Assembly (NCBI GenBank): GCA_903883965.1
Contig: CAISCU010000001.1
Location: forward strand, 1-53,569
DNA from: an uncultured Bacteroidota bacterium
GTDB lineage: Bacteria; Bacteroidota; Bacteroidia; UKL13-3
DNA: 53,569 nucleotides
Reading direction: 5' to 3'
Positions within the stretch are counted from its first letter, which is position 1; every line of letters begins with the position of its first letter. Of this stretch, positions 25,804-34,255 are shown piece by piece. The notes beneath the pieces are model-generated. The model saw nothing but the letters and a program-made list of their open reading frames with translations, was not told the DNA's origin and did not search any database. Both the position numbers and the translations under genes were made by a program.

Positions 25804-26304
25804 ATGTTCAAAAAAATTACACTTTTAAGTTTGGTCCTGTTCCTTTTATCCATCAGTATAAAGGCGCAAGAAGCGAACTCAGCAAATACTGAGAATCAGC
25901 TCAATCAACTAAAAAACAAGATACAAGCTCAACAAAAACTTATCCACAAAAACGAAGAATTACTTAAAGTCCAAGAAAGCAAAATTGCGGATATGGGTGC
26001 TAAAATGAGCACTGAAATTGCAAACTTAAAAAATGACCAAGCAGCACAATTACAAACAATTGAGTCAAAAATGACCGGAGTTTTAGATGGATACAATGCT
26101 AAAATAGAAACTCAAAACAAAACTATAGAGGATTTAAAAGCATCACTCAACAAAAAAGATTTCAATTTGTACTTATACATCGCCATTGCATTAGGTATTG
26201 CAATGGTGCTATTTGTTTATTTCATGAAAATGGCCATTCAAAAAGCCATTACCCAACAAGGTAAAAATTGGTCTGATTTTTTAACTCACATCGCAAAAAG
26301 ATAA
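25804..26304 (+). CDS. Exported coiled-coil protein with C-terminal membrane helix (motor operon gene 1)
   Basis: A 166-residue protein with a signal peptide (1-21, ending IKAQ). A long, almost uninterrupted heptad pattern (about 28-115, rich in Lys, Gln, Asn, Glu, Leu) predicts a coiled coil. A single transmembrane helix at about 121-141 (LYIAIALGIAMVLFVYFM) follows, and then a basic cytoplasmic tail. The likely topology is coiled coil in the periplasm, C-terminus in the cytoplasm. It is the first gene of the operon and lies 9 bases before the GldL-like gene. I recognise no family; by position it may be an accessory or assembly factor of the motor. Confidence 0.7.
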   Translation: MFKKITLLSLVLFLLSISIKAQEANSANTENQLNQLKNKIQAQQKLIHKNEELLKVQESKIADMGAKMSTEIANLKNDQAAQLQTIESKMTGVLDGYNAKIETQNKTIEDLKASLNKKDFNLYLYIAIALGIAMVLFVYFMKMAIQKAITQQGKNWSDFLTHIAKR

Positions 26305-26313
26305 CTCAATTAT

Positions 26314-26814
26314 ATGGCAATCAAAGCAAAAGGAAAATTAGATCCGATCACCTTTATTTATGGTTTCGGAGCGGCAGTCATTCTGGTAGGATCCATGTTT
26401 AAATTCATAGGATGGGATTATGCCAATGAATTGTTTATTGCCGGTTTGGCAATTGAAGCAGTTGTATTTATTATTTCTGCTTTTGAAAGAAAAGTAGATG
26501 ACAAAGAATACCATTGGGAAAATGTATTTCCTCAATTGGAACAAGAAAATACAGGAAACAGCCCTGACAGCAGCTCATACGCAAAAGCCATGGAACAATT
26601 GTCTGAAAGTATCAAAAGTTTTTCAGGTCAAATTACCCATTTGAATCAATCTTTAGAGCATATCAACAAAGAAATGCTGGCTAACAATGAATCAACCAAA
26701 GCCATGAATGGCAGGGTTCAAGAATTAAACAAACAAATGGAAGAATATGCGGGTTACATGCAACAAATGAACTCCAAATACAAAGATTTTCTTTCAGGCG
26801 GAAAAGCTAACTAA
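26314..26814 (+). CDS. GldL-like inner-membrane motor protein
   Basis: A 166-residue homologue of GldL/PorL, the membrane part of the proton-driven GldLM motor. Two transmembrane helices (about 14-31 and 38-56) are followed by a cytoplasmic coiled coil (about 85-160). The GldL hallmarks are the YGFGAAVILVGSMFKF first helix with Lys30, and IEAVVFIISAFE. In the latter, Glu48 matches the membrane glutamate of GldL (Glu49 in Flavobacterium) and Glu58 closes the helix. It is shorter than canonical GldL (about 215). The usual FKITH histidine position is replaced. Its stop overlaps the next start (TAATG), so it is translationally coupled to the first GldM-like gene. Confidence 0.85.
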   Translation: MAIKAKGKLDPITFIYGFGAAVILVGSMFKFIGWDYANELFIAGLAIEAVVFIISAFERKVDDKEYHWENVFPQLEQENTGNSPDSSSYAKAMEQLSESIKSFSGQITHLNQSLEHINKEMLANNESTKAMNGRVQELNKQMEEYAGYMQQMNSKYKDFLSGGKAN

Positions 26815-28205
26815 TGGCAGGTTCAACAGTTAAAATACATCGCTCAAGGGCACTGAGTTTTAAGAAATTATCTTTCTTATACTTGGTGTTTATTGTGTTT
26901 TATTTTTTCTCAACTTCTGGTGACTATATCAAACAATATGAGTCAATGAACAAGACCCAAGTCATGTTGAATGGTATCTTACAATCTCAACTAGAAGCAA
27001 TTGAGTGTAAAAACTTAGAAGACATTGCCTTGAAAAATAAAACCCTAGATTTTATTGACCAAATAGAACAAGTAAAAAAAGAATTGCAAAACGAAATTGG
27101 CAATTCAATAAAATTAGATGAGAAACTAAAAGAGACCAAGTTCAGTAAAAAATTTGTTGAAAATGGCAATTATGAAAATCTAAAAGCAGCAATGGTTGCT
27201 TATGCTGAATCCTTTCCAGACCAAAAAAAACAAGGTTTGATGACCATTTTTGGAATTGAAGAAAAAGTTAAAAATAAATTCTTTACCAATATTCCAAATG
27301 GATTCATGGGCAATGTTTTAAATAACTACCAAACGATTGCACTAAAAAACAGCATCGAATACTTAAATAGTAAATCAATTGCTAGCAAAGAGCCTGTTAA
27401 AGAATCAACAGAAAAAATCAAGAACAATCCTTTTCTTCAATCATTGAAATCAACTTATTATATTGGCGAAGAGGTTCTTTTTTCTTTGTACAGCAACAAT
27501 GGTTCATCTCCTAAACTTCAAGTTAACGAACTAAACATTGACTTAAAAGAAAGCAAATTAAATACTTACACTGCCAAGTGGCTTCCTTCAAAGCCTGGTA
27601 TTTATTCAGTGATAGCTTCTAATGTAGGACACGATCAAATTCAGCAAATTGAGGTAAAATCGCTTGATTTAAAATTCCTTGAAAGTTTACAAGAAGTGGT
27701 TTGTAACATGAATGAACCATTTACACTCACACCCTATTTAGGTAAAGAATTAAAAATCAAAGACCTCAGTTATATTTCTAAAGAAGCAATCATTGAAATA
27801 GAAGGCAATCATTTAAAAATAACCCCAATAGTAGAGGGTCGTTTCAATTTACAGGTAAAACTTGGAAAACAAATCATAGAAAACATCTCACTATTTGCCA
27901 AGATCAATACAGCACCTATTGTTCAGTTAAAAGACAAATACAATCAATTAACTGAACTTACAAATGCATTTGCCCTAGCTTCTAGTAATTCACTTTGGCA
28001 AGTTGCTTCATTTAATATGGTTTTGATATACCCCGATGGGAACAAACAAACTTTTCGTTCTAACAATAGGTTCTTAAATGGTGACATGTTAACCGCACAA
28101 AAGAACATGCCAATTGGTTCAGGTATTGTTTTTGAACAAATAAAATTGTTGTTCAATGACGGTGTAAAAACAACCAATGGCAGACCAATCTATATTCAAA
28201 AATAA
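26814..28205 (+). CDS. GldM-like periplasmic motor protein A
   Basis: The 463 residues have the architecture of GldM/PorM: a short basic N-terminus, one transmembrane helix (about 19-36, LSFLYLVFIVFYFF, against the canonical NLMYLVFIAML), a helical periplasmic domain to about 200, then beta-rich domains. The end (SFNMVLIYPDGNKQTFRSNN...IGSGIVFEQIKLLFNDG) resembles the last GldM domain. At the position of the conserved membrane-proximal Arg of GldM (Arg9 in Flavobacterium, by alignment on YLVF) this protein has Ser15; its companion has Arg14. It is coupled on both sides by TAATG overlaps. Divergent, but clearly not a fragment. Confidence 0.8.
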   Translation: MAGSTVKIHRSRALSFKKLSFLYLVFIVFYFFSTSGDYIKQYESMNKTQVMLNGILQSQLEAIECKNLEDIALKNKTLDFIDQIEQVKKELQNEIGNSIKLDEKLKETKFSKKFVENGNYENLKAAMVAYAESFPDQKKQGLMTIFGIEEKVKNKFFTNIPNGFMGNVLNNYQTIALKNSIEYLNSKSIASKEPVKESTEKIKNNPFLQSLKSTYYIGEEVLFSLYSNNGSSPKLQVNELNIDLKESKLNTYTAKWLPSKPGIYSVIASNVGHDQIQQIEVKSLDLKFLESLQEVVCNMNEPFTLTPYLGKELKIKDLSYISKEAIIEIEGNHLKITPIVEGRFNLQVKLGKQIIENISLFAKINTAPIVQLKDKYNQLTELTNAFALASSNSLWQVASFNMVLIYPDGNKQTFRSNNRFLNGDMLTAQKNMPIGSGIVFEQIKLLFNDGVKTTNGRPIYIQK

Positions 28206-29608
28206 TGTCAGCATACGTTAAAATAAAAAGAAGTAAAAACTTAAGGTTCAAGCTCATTAGCTTAATGTACCTTGTATTTTTAATGCTATCGTTGATTCAA
28301 ATTCCCACAGATTGGCTTGCAAATAATGCTTTTATACATCCTTATTTGAACCATCCTAAAGCCATCTACAAAGATGAAATGATTCAAATAACCGCTGCAA
28401 AACTCAGAGCAATTGAACCTCAAATGCAGTTAGCCATGGGCTATGATTCTATTACCAAAACTATCAAGGAACCCAATGCCTATGCTCCAACTGATTTGTA
28501 TTTTATAAAGAACGGAGCTGCTTCAACCATTTTCAATGCCTTAACAGAGTTAAATAATTGGATTTATACAATTAATACCGACTCAATTGTGCTTCACAAT
28601 TATGAATATTTGTTCGCAGAAGATTTAAAAAATGGCTTACAAAAAGACAATTTAAAAAGTTGGCAAAATTGGAAATGGAAACACATTCCGGCAACTATGG
28701 CCATGAATTTGTTTGAAGAGCTAAAATTGAGAATTGACTTATTATCAATTGCAGTTAAGCCAATTGATAAAAAAGATGAAGATGAGCAAACACCAATTAG
28801 TTACAACAGTCAAGACGATCCAAAGCTGGTATTGTTGAGTGAAAATGGTAAGTTAAGAATTGGTGAGACACTTAGATTTCATTTGTATGCAGACAGTTTG
28901 GTTAAATTAAATATTAGTAAAAACAACCAGGGAATTCAAAACCAACATGTATTTCATTCAGATACTGTTTTATTCACACCCAAAGAAACTGGTAAATATA
29001 CCATTGAGATAGCTGGTACAAAATTAAATGAAGTGTTTGAAGTGGATGTCATACCTGCTAACATCGTATCCGACAAAAAAAGTACATTTAGAATTGCGTA
29101 CAAAGGCATTCAATACTCACAAGCTTTACCTAACAATTTACAAGCCTCTACCTTGTTTGTTAATGGTGTCAATAAGGGTAAAATCACAACTTCACATAAA
29201 ATCAATTATACACCAAGTCAATTAGGTTGGAATGTGTTAGAGATAAAGTCGGCAAGTAGTGTTTTACTATCAGACTCAATTTACGTTAAACCCCTTCCGG
29301 AGCCTTATATTTTCATCAAAGATTTACCCAATTTTAGTATCAGCAAAAAAAGGCTAGAACAATTGAATTCGATTGATTTGTATGCCATTCACCCTTCATT
29401 TGAAGACGGAATTTTCAAAATTGAGTCATTTGAAGTTACCATACCAGGATCAGCTATTGGTACATTTAAAGTGTCTGGTAATTCATTTCCAGTATCAGAA
29501 ACTTTAAAAAATAGCAATGTACCCTATATCATCATTTCAAAAATTGTTACCAAACAAGGAAATGAAAATAAAACTTTAACAGAACCTATAGTAGTTAAAA
29601 TACTTTAA
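28205..29608 (+). CDS. GldM-like periplasmic motor protein B
   Basis: A second full-length GldM-like protein of 467 residues. The N-terminus VKIKRSKNLRFKLISLMYLV parallels protein A (VKIHRSRALSFKKLSFLYLV) and is closer to canonical GldM. It keeps Arg14 at the position of the conserved GldM Arg. A transmembrane helix (about 17-33) leads to a helical domain (to about 190) and beta-rich domains. The last (SFEVTIPGSAIGTFKVSGNS...PIVVKIL) has the GldM C-terminal pattern. It starts inside the stop codon of A (TAATG) and is followed after 2 bases by the outer-membrane gene. Two different GldM chains in equal supply suggest a heterodimer; that is inference. Confidence 0.8.
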   Translation: MSAYVKIKRSKNLRFKLISLMYLVFLMLSLIQIPTDWLANNAFIHPYLNHPKAIYKDEMIQITAAKLRAIEPQMQLAMGYDSITKTIKEPNAYAPTDLYFIKNGAASTIFNALTELNNWIYTINTDSIVLHNYEYLFAEDLKNGLQKDNLKSWQNWKWKHIPATMAMNLFEELKLRIDLLSIAVKPIDKKDEDEQTPISYNSQDDPKLVLLSENGKLRIGETLRFHLYADSLVKLNISKNNQGIQNQHVFHSDTVLFTPKETGKYTIEIAGTKLNEVFEVDVIPANIVSDKKSTFRIAYKGIQYSQALPNNLQASTLFVNGVNKGKITTSHKINYTPSQLGWNVLEIKSASSVLLSDSIYVKPLPEPYIFIKDLPNFSISKKRLEQLNSIDLYAIHPSFEDGIFKIESFEVTIPGSAIGTFKVSGNSFPVSETLKNSNVPYIIISKIVTKQGNENKTLTEPIVVKIL

Positions 29609-29610
29609 CC

Positions 29611-31662
29611 ATGAAACACATCATTCGTATCCTCATTATATTGTGCTTTTGTTCTCAGGCATTTCACCTGATGGCTCAAGATACTATTGTGATTGAACAA
29701 TCCAGAGTAATCTCAAAAGGCCAAAGTTTTGATGTTCCTGCTGGTTCAACAATTGTATTGATGCCAGGAGCTAAAATTTGGGTAGAAGGTAGCTTAAATT
29801 TAAATGGAACAGCTGCCAAACCAATTTATGTTATTTCTAAAGACGCAAAAGAACCTGGTTCAGGTATTGTAATCAATGGACAATCTTACCAACAAAGTAT
29901 ACAAATTGCATACACTTATTTTATTGCTCTAGAACAAGCCTTGCGTTTTGACCCATTTTGGGCAAGAAAAATGGTCCATTTAGACCATATACAAGTAAGC
30001 CAATCAGTTTACAACGAATCAAGTATATCAATTTCTGCACCTTTTATAGACCATAACTACCCTCCTATTCAATTTTCAATAACAGGCTTAGATTATTTTA
30101 ATAACAATGCAGCTTTTTTCATTGAAGAATACGGAAACAACTCAATTCAATACAATTTAAATGGCTTGAATTTCTTTGAAAACAAACTTCCTGCTACAAC
30201 TGAAAATACTGGCATTTTTCATTTGCAATTGACAGATGAAAATCAAAAACAAAAGAACCAAATTGATCAAATTTCATTTAGCCGAAATTTTCAAGGACAA
30301 AAAGAAATTGGTCTTTCTGTATCTGGAAACCAAGACACCATCATTATTCAATCAGCTATGGGTGCGGTTCATTCAATACCTGTTATCGATTCCAAATCAG
30401 ACCCAAGATTACCTACAGTTACTGTTCAAAAAATAGAAGACATCAAGACAGTTCAAGCAGAAAAATGTCAAATTCACTCTATTTTTCACAAGAAAAACAA
30501 CATTGTAATTCATACCAATTCAGCTTGTGCTGTATCTTATTTAAGAGACAGCAACAACTCAAACATTCCTTATACAGTTAGCAGAAGCAATGACAGTATT
30601 GTATTGAATTATACAAGCAATTTAGTTCCAGCAAAACTTTGGATGAATGAGCAATTTTGGATTGCTGTTCCACCTATTTTAGATTTAGATTCTTCCCAAT
30701 CGGTACAAAAAGCACCAATTCAAGCCGAAGAAAAAAGAGCACATGGCTTCTGGGCAGATTCTTCAATGCTCAAAGATTTAAACTTATTTAAGCCAAGTGT
30801 CGAAATTGGAATGTTTACTGGAATTGCCGCTTACGTTGGAGATATCAAACCAAAATTTGGTTTACCTGCTTGTTATGAATTTTCAAATGGGTTCAATGTT
30901 CAATACCACCACAACAAGCATGTATCTTATCAGTTTACTTTCAACAGGGCCGATATTGGTTCTGATGATCCAACTGCTTTGTACTTGGCCTATTCATCAT
31001 TACCAATTTATATAGACAAAGGTTCAGTTGCATGGAAAGTACCAAGCTACAGAATGAATTTCAAAACCAAAATTTACTCCTTTGAATTGGGAACAACCTA
31101 TTATTTCAGCAGATACATCATGGAGGATAAATCAGTTGCCAATTTAAAAGGCAAATGGGTATCGGGAATTGGAGCTGGAATTGGAATATTCAGCTATGAT
31201 CCTTATAGGTATTCTGTATATAGCAAATACGCAGGTGAAGTTCAATGGGTTAGTTTGCGCGAAATGGGTACTGAGGGTCAAAATTTCATACCTGGAAAGT
31301 CAAGATATAGCCAATATGCCATGAATTTGAATGTGCATTATGAATTGAATTTTTGCTACGAACGTTGGAAATTCAAAACTGAATTGAGAGGGGTAATTAC
31401 TTCTACCAATTACCTCGATGACATGGGTGATGGTTATTACTATGGCAATGACTATGCTAAATGGGCTGCAACTGCACCAGCTTGGGCCAATTATGTAGAC
31501 AAAAACGGAAATTCAGTTCCTATGGTTCAAGTTTTCCCTGATTTTGGCAAAGTAGCATCAAAAAGAACTTACAGCTTATTGCCTGATGGATATATTCAAT
31601 TTCACATGGGATTGAGTTACGACATTGGCTATCCGCTGAAGGCTAAAAAAACCAAAAAATAA
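29611..31662 (+). CDS. Outer-membrane protein: beta-helix-like N-domain plus PorG-like barrel
   Basis: A 683-residue exported protein (signal peptide 1-22, ending HLMAQ). Residues of about 23-250 look like a parallel beta-helix: short repeating beta strands with Gly/Asn turns (IVLMPGAKIWVEGSLNLNGT). About 395-683 has the alternating aromatic pattern of a beta-barrel and the start PSVEIGMFTGIAAYVGDIKP. This resembles the EVG...GG.NY.GDI opening of the PorG/DUF6089 barrels of T9SS; GADIGSDD-like turns and a final aromatic strand (MGLSYDIGYPL) follow. It is the last gene of the motor operon and plausibly its outer-membrane terminus. The PorG resemblance is pattern-based and needs a profile search. 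Confidence 0.65.
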   Translation: MKHIIRILIILCFCSQAFHLMAQDTIVIEQSRVISKGQSFDVPAGSTIVLMPGAKIWVEGSLNLNGTAAKPIYVISKDAKEPGSGIVINGQSYQQSIQIAYTYFIALEQALRFDPFWARKMVHLDHIQVSQSVYNESSISISAPFIDHNYPPIQFSITGLDYFNNNAAFFIEEYGNNSIQYNLNGLNFFENKLPATTENTGIFHLQLTDENQKQKNQIDQISFSRNFQGQKEIGLSVSGNQDTIIIQSAMGAVHSIPVIDSKSDPRLPTVTVQKIEDIKTVQAEKCQIHSIFHKKNNIVIHTNSACAVSYLRDSNNSNIPYTVSRSNDSIVLNYTSNLVPAKLWMNEQFWIAVPPILDLDSSQSVQKAPIQAEEKRAHGFWADSSMLKDLNLFKPSVEIGMFTGIAAYVGDIKPKFGLPACYEFSNGFNVQYHHNKHVSYQFTFNRADIGSDDPTALYLAYSSLPIYIDKGSVAWKVPSYRMNFKTKIYSFELGTTYYFSRYIMEDKSVANLKGKWVSGIGAGIGIFSYDPYRYSVYSKYAGEVQWVSLREMGTEGQNFIPGKSRYSQYAMNLNVHYELNFCYERWKFKTELRGVITSTNYLDDMGDGYYYGNDYAKWAATAPAWANYVDKNGNSVPMVQVFPDFGKVASKRTYSLLPDGYIQFHMGLSYDIGYPLKAKKTKK

Positions 31663-31810: not shown

Positions 31811-34255
31811 ATGAATAAAACCTTGGTTTGTATTTTGGGTATTTTACTCTTCAACTTTACAGTTGTAGTATTACATGCACAACCATGTGTCAATACAATT
31901 GTAAACGAACCTATTCCGAACAAATGCTTTGAAATTGTGAGTGTATTGGTTGATGCCTGCGACGGTAGCAATGAAGGTAAGAATGAAATGATTCGGCTGA
32001 AAATAGGCCCTAGTGATTTATTGGTATCAACTTTGGCACCAGGCCCTTGCAACCCAGGAGTTACTGTAAATTGGGGAACTGGATCGGGCACTAATCCGTT
32101 TCTTGGATGGGCAAATTATAAAGCAGCAGATATTGTAAAGATTGATACCATCAACAATAGAATCAAAGCAGCAGGTAATTGTGGCATTTTAATTCCTAAA
32201 AATAAAACAGATTATATACCTGCAGGTTCCAATTTATTAATCATTACAAGTACAGCATATAACCCTACTGCGCATGATTTTATTGGATTACAAGACACAT
32301 TGTTTGTAATTCTTCAGGTTGCAGATGCAACTGGAAACCAGGGTGGGCATTTTGCCAATTTTAATACACCCTCCTCTACAAGAAAACTAGTACTCCTTTC
32401 TGGCTCATGTGGTGACACAGTTAGCTATGATATTAGTAAATTATTGACCCAAAGTTTAGTAAAAGGACAAGAAGACGGAGCTACGGTCAATTATACATTT
32501 AACGGCATTGTCACTTATTCAAATCCTGGTTGTAAAATTCCTATCCCTGTTCAGACCATTGATGCAGGAAGTGTTCCGGCTAGTATTTGTGCAGGGGGTA
32601 CAATCAATTTAAATGGTACTTATTCTGGAAACCATTGTTATGCATGGAGAGCTGCCAATTCAACTAGCGGCACTTTTGCAGACAGCTTAAATTTAATTAC
32701 GACATATACATTCAAGAATGGTTTTAAAGGCAAATGTAAATTGTATTTAGTTGCCAAACTAAATTGTAAAGATTACAAAGATTCTGTTGAGTTAAACGTA
32801 CTTGCTCCTTCAGATAGCATCCGCATTCAAAAAATGGATACTGTATGGTGTGACCAAAAACAAATACCTATTAAAGCCATTAGTACCAATTTAGCCAGTG
32901 TTATATGGACTACAAATGGTTTTGGAAAGATAGATTTCCCCAATCAATTGACTATTGTTTACACACCAGATACTTTAAAAGACAAGGGTAATGTTGTATT
33001 TAAAGTAACACAAAATACTACTTGCGGAATGATTGAAGACAGTGTCCGTTTATTCATAGCCAAAGCTGATGCGCGTTTTTTGCCAGACAAATTGGTATTG
33101 TGCAAAGGTGAAGCAGCCATTTCATTAAACCCAAAGAACAACAACGGCCAATTTTATGGTGCAACGGGTATGATTACCAATTCATTTTTTAATCCAATAG
33201 ATACCGGAAATTACATTGTTACTTATATCATTTCAGAATTGGGCTGTTTGGATACTGCAAAGCAAGAAATCAATGTCAATGGATTTTATATAGACCAAAT
33301 CAGCACTTTGAATCCAAGCTGTTATGGACTACAAGATGGCAGTATTCAAATAGACCTCTCTGCAGGAAAAAGCCCTTTTATTTTTCAATGGAACAATCAG
33401 GTGAACTCCTTGAGCCAACAACAAAATTTAAAGGCAGGTAGCTACCACATTCAAATTACTGACAATAACAATTGCAGAGATACATTTACAATTGAATTAC
33501 AAGAACCTTCAGCAATTGAACTGAATAAAAGTATTCAGCAGCCAACTTGTGGATTGAATAATGGTTCTATACAAATTCAAGTAACTGGAGGTACACAACC
33601 TTATCAATTGCTATTGAACAACAAGCCAACTGTTTTAAATAATTTCCAAAACCTCCTTGCTGGTAAATATTACTTAATGGTAGTAGATAGCCACGCATGT
33701 ACCCTATCAGATACCAGTGAATTGTTCCTATCAACCGCAGTTCAAATAAGTACCAATACCATTGCAGATACCTGTAATGCTTATAAGGGATCAGTTGAAG
33801 TAGCCATTAAAAGTGGAATAGCTCCATTTAGTTACAATTGGACCCCATTTTACGCACCTAATCCATCACAATACAATTTAGCTGGTAAAAGCGCAGGAAT
33901 GGTGGTTGTAATAGATGCCAACCGCTGCAGCGATACTGCATACTATGAAGTTCCTGATATCTGTAAAAATGAAATTTGGATTTCCAATGCTTTTAGACCT
34001 TCAAGTTCAACTATAGAAAACAATCAATTTGGACCTGTTACATCATTTCCAGAAAGCATTGAATGGTATCAGTTTCGTATATTCAACAGATGGGGACAAC
34101 AAGTTTTTGAGAGTATCGATTACAAAAACCGTTGGGATGGACGTATCAATGATACTGAAGCGGCTACCGATATCTACTTTTATGACTTGCAAGTTCGCTT
34201 CCAAAATGATGGTTCAATAGAAACATTAAAAGGAAATGTAACCCTTCTTAGATAA
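31811..34255 (+). CDS. Secreted SprB-repeat protein with type B T9SS sorting domain
   Basis: The 814 residues begin with a signal peptide (1-24). An N-terminal domain (about 25-230) carries VLVDACDGSNEGKNEM, a pattern seen in lamin-tail-like domains of Bacteroidota surface proteins. Ig-like modules follow, then about three SprB-type repeats from about 495 to 715 (NPSCYGLQDGSIQIDLSAG, PTCGLNNGSIQIQVTGG, TCNAYKGSVEVAIKSG). It ends in a type B (CHU_C-like) sorting domain: IWISNAFRPSS, FRIFNRWGQQVFES, NRWDGR and FYDLQVRF. It is probably secreted by T9SS and kept at the cell surface. It lies 148 bases after the motor operon with its own promoter-like motif, so a functional link is possible but not shown. 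Confidence 0.85.
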   Translation: MNKTLVCILGILLFNFTVVVLHAQPCVNTIVNEPIPNKCFEIVSVLVDACDGSNEGKNEMIRLKIGPSDLLVSTLAPGPCNPGVTVNWGTGSGTNPFLGWANYKAADIVKIDTINNRIKAAGNCGILIPKNKTDYIPAGSNLLIITSTAYNPTAHDFIGLQDTLFVILQVADATGNQGGHFANFNTPSSTRKLVLLSGSCGDTVSYDISKLLTQSLVKGQEDGATVNYTFNGIVTYSNPGCKIPIPVQTIDAGSVPASICAGGTINLNGTYSGNHCYAWRAANSTSGTFADSLNLITTYTFKNGFKGKCKLYLVAKLNCKDYKDSVELNVLAPSDSIRIQKMDTVWCDQKQIPIKAISTNLASVIWTTNGFGKIDFPNQLTIVYTPDTLKDKGNVVFKVTQNTTCGMIEDSVRLFIAKADARFLPDKLVLCKGEAAISLNPKNNNGQFYGATGMITNSFFNPIDTGNYIVTYIISELGCLDTAKQEINVNGFYIDQISTLNPSCYGLQDGSIQIDLSAGKSPFIFQWNNQVNSLSQQQNLKAGSYHIQITDNNNCRDTFTIELQEPSAIELNKSIQQPTCGLNNGSIQIQVTGGTQPYQLLLNNKPTVLNNFQNLLAGKYYLMVVDSHACTLSDTSELFLSTAVQISTNTIADTCNAYKGSVEVAIKSGIAPFSYNWTPFYAPNPSQYNLAGKSAGMVVVIDANRCSDTAYYEVPDICKNEIWISNAFRPSSSTIENNQFGPVTSFPESIEWYQFRIFNRWGQQVFESIDYKNRWDGRINDTEAATDIYFYDLQVRFQNDGSIETLKGNVTLLR

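Follow-up and report, generated by a model that had tools for sequence, protein, structure and literature searches.

The window, i.e. the whole analyzed stretch of 53,569 nucleotides, harbors a five-gene cassette. Its products probably form a dedicated proton motor of the GldLM type that spans the cell envelope, has a 5:(1+1) composition, is separate from the canonical motor of the type IX secretion system (T9SS) and acts directly on an outer-membrane protein, here termed E. The identity of the components and the conserved linkage of the five genes are established at the level of sequence. A wider interpretation comes close to an even chance without quite reaching it: the cassette might represent a family of rotary motors that has not been described before and does not depend on type IX secretion. 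In such a motor a ring of GldL would turn an obligate GldM-A/GldM-B heterodimer carrying a single Arg9 and work directly on an outer-membrane beta-helix/barrel protein, making it a Bacteroidota counterpart of Ton/Tol assembled from GldLM parts. An earlier note on this DNA had proposed a second GldLM-type motor operon without gldK and gldN. This proposal was upheld, with a separate canonical locus and a conserved outer-membrane partner; the independence from the T9SS and the direct drive of the outer-membrane protein that the note also envisaged may hold as well. The open reading frame coordinates and sizes of the five adjacent plus-strand genes at 25804-31662 were likewise confirmed:

25804..26304, + strand: gene A, 166 aa, with signal peptide, periplasmic coiled coil, C-terminal transmembrane (TM) helix and short cytoplasmic tail (topology predicted from sequence)
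26314..26814, + strand: GldL', 166 aa, putative motor ring subunit with Glu48 in TM2 and a short cytoplasmic coiled coil
26814..28205, + strand: GldM-A, 463 aa, single TM helix and GldM-like periplasmic shaft, Ser15 at the position of canonical Arg9
28205..29608, + strand: GldM-B, 467 aa, single TM helix and periplasmic shaft, Arg14 equivalent to Arg9 of canonical GldM
29611..31662, + strand: outer-membrane protein E, 683 aa, with signal peptide, predicted parallel beta-helix (residues ~24-255), beta-sandwich (269-352) and 8-stranded PorG-like outer-membrane barrel (396-673)
31811..34255, + strand: neighbor, possibly outside the cassette; SprB-repeat protein with a CHU_C T9SS sorting domain (PF13573, PF13585)

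The gaps are as previously described, with 9 bases between gene A and GldL', 2 bases between GldM-B and the E gene, and TAATG overlaps of 1 base at 26814 (GldL'/GldM-A) and 28205 (GldM-A/GldM-B). Neither gldK nor gldN is present beside the cassette in the window. Promoter-like sites occurred at background level and terminator-like sites slightly above background. Comparison of the window with locus L087 yielded dN/dS values of 0.05-0.15 for each of the five genes, which indicates purifying selection on the entire cassette; in four of the genes the synonymous sites are nearly saturated.

A GldL' profile scan of 84,980 species genomes recovered 51 loci, all from metagenome-assembled genomes of uncultured Bacteroidota. 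The five-gene order A, GldL, GldM-A, GldM-B, E, whose survey across the phylum had been suggested, recurs in 44 of them, counting contigs that end early as well as L124 and L125, where the profile misses a strongly diverged gene A that can be recognized by eye. Three loci contain four genes (GldL-GldM-GldM-E) and four contain three (GldL-GldM-E), with more three-gene loci found in further genome searches; the GldL-GldM-E unit with a single GldM occurs in four other families. In the five-gene loci a homologue of gene A precedes GldL, and the gene A profile had no match in the three- and four-gene loci. E follows the GldM gene or genes in every locus of sufficient length. Of 58 related genomes, 8 contain GldM-A, and its neighbors are the same where the contig permitted. 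Among 395 sampled genomes of the class, an E protein with a beta-helix was found in 15, from five families, the other matches listed being barrel-only and PorG-like. Gene order and key residues are kept at about 30% protein identity, and the flanking genes vary among lineages; no conserved partner gene outside the cassette exceeded 7 of the 51 loci. The recurrence of the order in 44 loci, together with purifying selection, shows that the arrangement is not due to chance. Raw counts had suggested that roughly one genome in four carries an additional GldL. A paralogue-specific profile and inspection of the loci gave no support for this, and most of the second hits fail to match that profile.

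GldL' exceeds the curated cut-offs for GldL, with 79.1 bits against PF22827 (cut-off 24) and 83.6 bits against TIGR03513 (cut-off 68.3), and its Glu48 lies in TM2, in agreement with the GldL-like protein with a membrane glutamate noted earlier. Glu48 corresponds to E49 of Flavobacterium johnsoniae GldL and is invariant in all 88 GldL sequences compared, canonical copies included. With rare exceptions, Tyr16 of GldL and the TM tyrosine of GldM are also kept among the homologues. These residues are taken to be the equivalents of the Y13 and Y17 positions, which have been reported as important in GldLM (PMC7463736). In a phylogenetic tree the GldL proteins of the five-gene loci form one group that is separate from canonical GldL. 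With 166 aa, GldL' is shorter than the canonical GldL of the same genome (208 aa).

The genome containing the window (2.48 Mb in 55 contigs, completeness estimate 100%) possesses two GldL genes in total, the canonical one and that of the cassette. The separate canonical locus that the earlier note had recommended looking for was found as porP-gldK-gldL-gldM-gldN on contig C23, and sprA is located on contig C33. Two tandem porG genes are present on contig C51 (L137), with a PorG score of 148.5 (NF052316, cut-off 130). The presence of porP-gldKLMN, sprA and porG elsewhere in the genome rules out that the cassette is the main T9SS motor. A canonical gldL is also present in the cassette carriers examined.

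The large outer-membrane protein anticipated as the product of the fifth gene was borne out by an AlphaFold2 model (mean pLDDT 81.6, pTM 0.51, with a low-confidence linker between beta-sandwich and barrel), in which E is predicted to combine a periplasmic beta-helix with a PorG-like 8-stranded outer-membrane barrel. The beta-helix is closest in fold to PL6 alginate lyases and tailspike depolymerases (VIA-align Z 18) and to the epimerase AlgG, and the barrel matches that of OprF (VIA-align Z 17.6). The comparison with the PorG profile gave a match to the equivalog NF052316, yet at 21.8 bits it stayed below the cut-off of 130. Distant E homologues match DUF6089 at about 67 bits, and E has GTEGQ and YLDD motifs in common with the PorG proteins of its own genome. 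As an 8-stranded barrel has its two ends on the periplasmic side, the beta-helix of E should be periplasmic and within reach of the GldM tips.

Two loci differ in their outer-membrane component. In genome G063 (L035:9003-12331) the E homologue lacks the barrel, and its end is overlapped by a TPR/PD40/OmpA gene resembling PorE. This suggests that the barrel anchor of E can be replaced by a peptidoglycan-binding anchor. In G227, a member of the Bacteroidia, a second GldL-GldM pair (L084:6953-9967) is followed by a barrel protein with an OmpA domain, and a canonical porP-gldKLMN locus is present at L083. As seen in these two genomes, there is more than one form of GldLM pair that lacks gldK/gldN and lies beside an outer-membrane-linked protein.

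The relationship of E to PorG bears on the main competing explanation, in which the cassette serves as an accessory T9SS motor: an alternative motor with a modified PorG would plug into the canonical GldK/GldN ring or the SprA translocon and serve particular substrates, for example large SprB-like adhesins. This is possible but rather unlikely. It ranks first among the rivals because PorG of Porphyromonas gingivalis is listed as a binder of the PorK/N ring (PMC7463736) and because the carriers have a canonical gldL. The PorG-like barrel of E could dock on the canonical GldK/GldN ring, and the window's genome has the full T9SS core. The same explanation gains from the PorE-like gene of the barrel-less G063 locus and from the SprB-repeat/CHU_C protein that adjoins the cassette, with related large proteins within ~3.5 kb of the cassette in 7 of the 51 loci. 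In most loci, however, the adhesin neighbor is not maintained. Moreover, no copy of gldK or gldN is found within or accompanies the cassette in any of the 51 loci. GldM-A and GldM-B also show no recognizable sequence match to GldM_4th, the domain corresponding to the PorN-binding D4, and the large additional periplasmic domain of E could bridge the gap. These points speak against an accessory T9SS motor.

The sequences of the two shaft proteins are distant from canonical GldM. Neither GldM-A nor GldM-B matched the GldM models of Pfam and NCBIfam, and they were consequently filed as distant homologues rather than as GldM. Of the predicted significant GldL and GldM profile matches, only the one for GldL was thus obtained (TIGR03513, PF22827). 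The claim of two full-length GldM-like proteins was sustained by profile-profile comparison, and for GldM-A also by structure, but not by any single-sequence profile match. The GldM proteins of the three- and four-gene loci mostly match the Pfam domains GldM_1st, GldM_3rd and GldM_4th; to an alignment of these proteins, GldM-A (E 3.7e-20) and GldM-B (E 6.2e-23) aligned over nearly their full length. The two proteins match each other with an E value of 1.8e-24, and hhalign of GldM-B with canonical GldM gave 8e-12. The AlphaFold2 model of GldM-A (mean pLDDT 79.1, pTM 0.37, relative domain placement unsure) consists of a TM helix, a helical domain (D1) and subsequent beta domains, which corresponds to a PorM/GldM-like fold. 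Its top match in the PDB is PorM (7cmg; Foldseek E 2.8e-14, VIA Z 15.4). GldM (6ey4; VIA Z 13.9) and the entry 6ey5 are also among the best matches, against a background of Z ~10 for unrelated Ig-tandem proteins. On the basis of the profile-profile comparisons, and of the predicted structure in the case of GldM-A, both proteins are distant homologues of GldM.

A systematic difference between them concerns Arg9 of canonical GldM, which reportedly contacts Glu49 of GldL. In an alignment through the TM motif this residue corresponds to Arg14 of GldM-B and to Ser15 of GldM-A. All 35 GldM-B sequences contain an arginine at this position, as do 13 of 14 GldM proteins that are single or from four-gene loci and all three canonical and G227 copies. 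In contrast, none of 39 GldM-A sequences does; serine, asparagine, isoleucine, threonine or leucine is found instead. In a tree, the GldM-A sequences group together, as do the GldM-B sequences (support 96 and 92; obtained by a quick method, with long branches present). GldM-A precedes GldM-B in all 37 loci with sufficient contig, usually with a 1-base overlap or 1 base apart. Because linked genes are expected to show such values, their distance correlation of 0.98 was not taken as support. The Arg9 asymmetry and the constant pairing strongly argue, from sequence, that GldM-A and GldM-B form an obligate heterodimeric axle. An AlphaFold-based model in which a single D4 of the PorM dimer engages PorN provides a precedent for asymmetry of the shaft (PMC12421860). 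Among the four-gene loci, a Bacteroidales locus (L128:10540-13597) has Arg9 only in the second GldM, with glutamine in the first copy, and L130 and L132 have it in both copies. The asymmetry is therefore not necessary in a duplicated GldM pair.

Alternatively, GldM-A and GldM-B could form two separate homodimeric motors that use one common GldL. Each comes with a TM helix and a full shaft of its own, and in Myxococcus xanthus AglR together with AglQ or AglS could in theory form two MotAB-like channels (PMC9389320). Such an arrangement is nonetheless improbable, as a GldM-A homodimer would be devoid of any Arg9 equivalent in all homologues and the two genes occur together, usually translationally coupled, in 37 of 37 loci.

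A heterodimeric axle would fit the following mechanism. By homology to known motors, a five-subunit GldL' ring would surround two axle helices, which in the cassette would be different, one from GldM-A and one from GldM-B (5:1:1). Proton flow past Glu48 of GldL' would turn or tilt the shaft, and the C-terminal GldM domains, spanning the periplasm, would push the periplasmic beta-helix of E. Fixed in the outer membrane by its PorG-like barrel, E would take the place of the GldK/GldN ring. The gene A protein accompanies the cassettes with two GldM proteins and is probably an anchor or a regulator of the GldL ring. Direct drive of E by the GldM shaft can be proposed with moderate confidence; the part played by the gene A protein and the eventual effect of the motor at the cell surface are presumptive.

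The resemblance of the E beta-helix to polysaccharide-active enzymes raises the question of whether an envelope polysaccharide is moved or modified by the cassette products, the motor driving action or export by E. However, parallel beta-helices are common and have many functions, E has no Pfam lyase match, and an 8-stranded barrel is too narrow for the export of a polymer, which makes such a function very unlikely. A decaying or chance duplicate of gldLM without function would agree with the distance of the GldM sequences from canonical GldM, but it has virtually no probability given the low dN/dS in all five genes and the order and key residues kept despite strong divergence. Zorya and other defense motors were rejected, as PADLOC returned only weak coiled-coil matches.

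To our knowledge, no role has been described for GldLM other than powering gliding and type IX secretion. The earlier note had known of no system with this layout, and neither a described GldLM set without gldK/gldN nor a paper on the five-gene operon was found in the open-access literature. A survey of 5:2 motors distinguishes two GldL length classes and several sets of outer proteins in some species and does not describe the five-gene operon (PMC9389320). What is new is a variant of the GldLM motor; the kind of motor protein was already known. If the proposed function is correct, an additional GldLM module of simpler build and with a dedicated outer-membrane partner would show GldLM to be a general power unit that, like ExbBD and TolQR, has been fitted to different outer-membrane tasks. 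A natural heterodimer with Arg9 on one shaft would make it testable how two axle helices share the work in a five-fold ring, and the three-gene set GldL-GldM-E would offer a minimal target for reconstitution that dispenses with the large GldK/GldN ring.

The cassette shares with GldLM/PorLM a GldL with the essential glutamate (E49 in F. johnsoniae) and the tyrosine. Also in common is a gldM directly after gldL that encodes a shaft with a single TM helix, helical D1 and beta domains. It differs from them in its two distinct GldM types, one without Arg9, its short GldL, the absence of gldK/gldN, the additional coiled-coil protein A and the dedicated outer-membrane partner E. PorG (DUF6089) and E have the C-terminal 8-stranded barrel with GTEGQ and YLDD in common, but in E the barrel is preceded by a beta-helix and a beta-sandwich, and its score is far below the PorG equivalog cut-off. 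The G227 pair likewise lies beside an outer-membrane barrel gene with canonical gldKLMN elsewhere, whereas its single GldM has good matches to the Pfam GldM domains and its partner is a barrel with OmpA instead of a beta-helix with a PorG-like barrel. AglRQS of Myxococcus gliding resembles the cassette in that a single ring protein is paired with two distinct axle proteins, but its components belong to MotA/MotB-type families rather than to GldL/GldM and serve other outer-membrane machinery. Finally, Ton/Tol (ExbBD, TolQR) and MotAB are 5:2 proton motors working across the periplasm, as presumed for the cassette; the cassette is built from other protein families, and no TonB, TolA or peptidoglycan-binding MotB domain was found in it.
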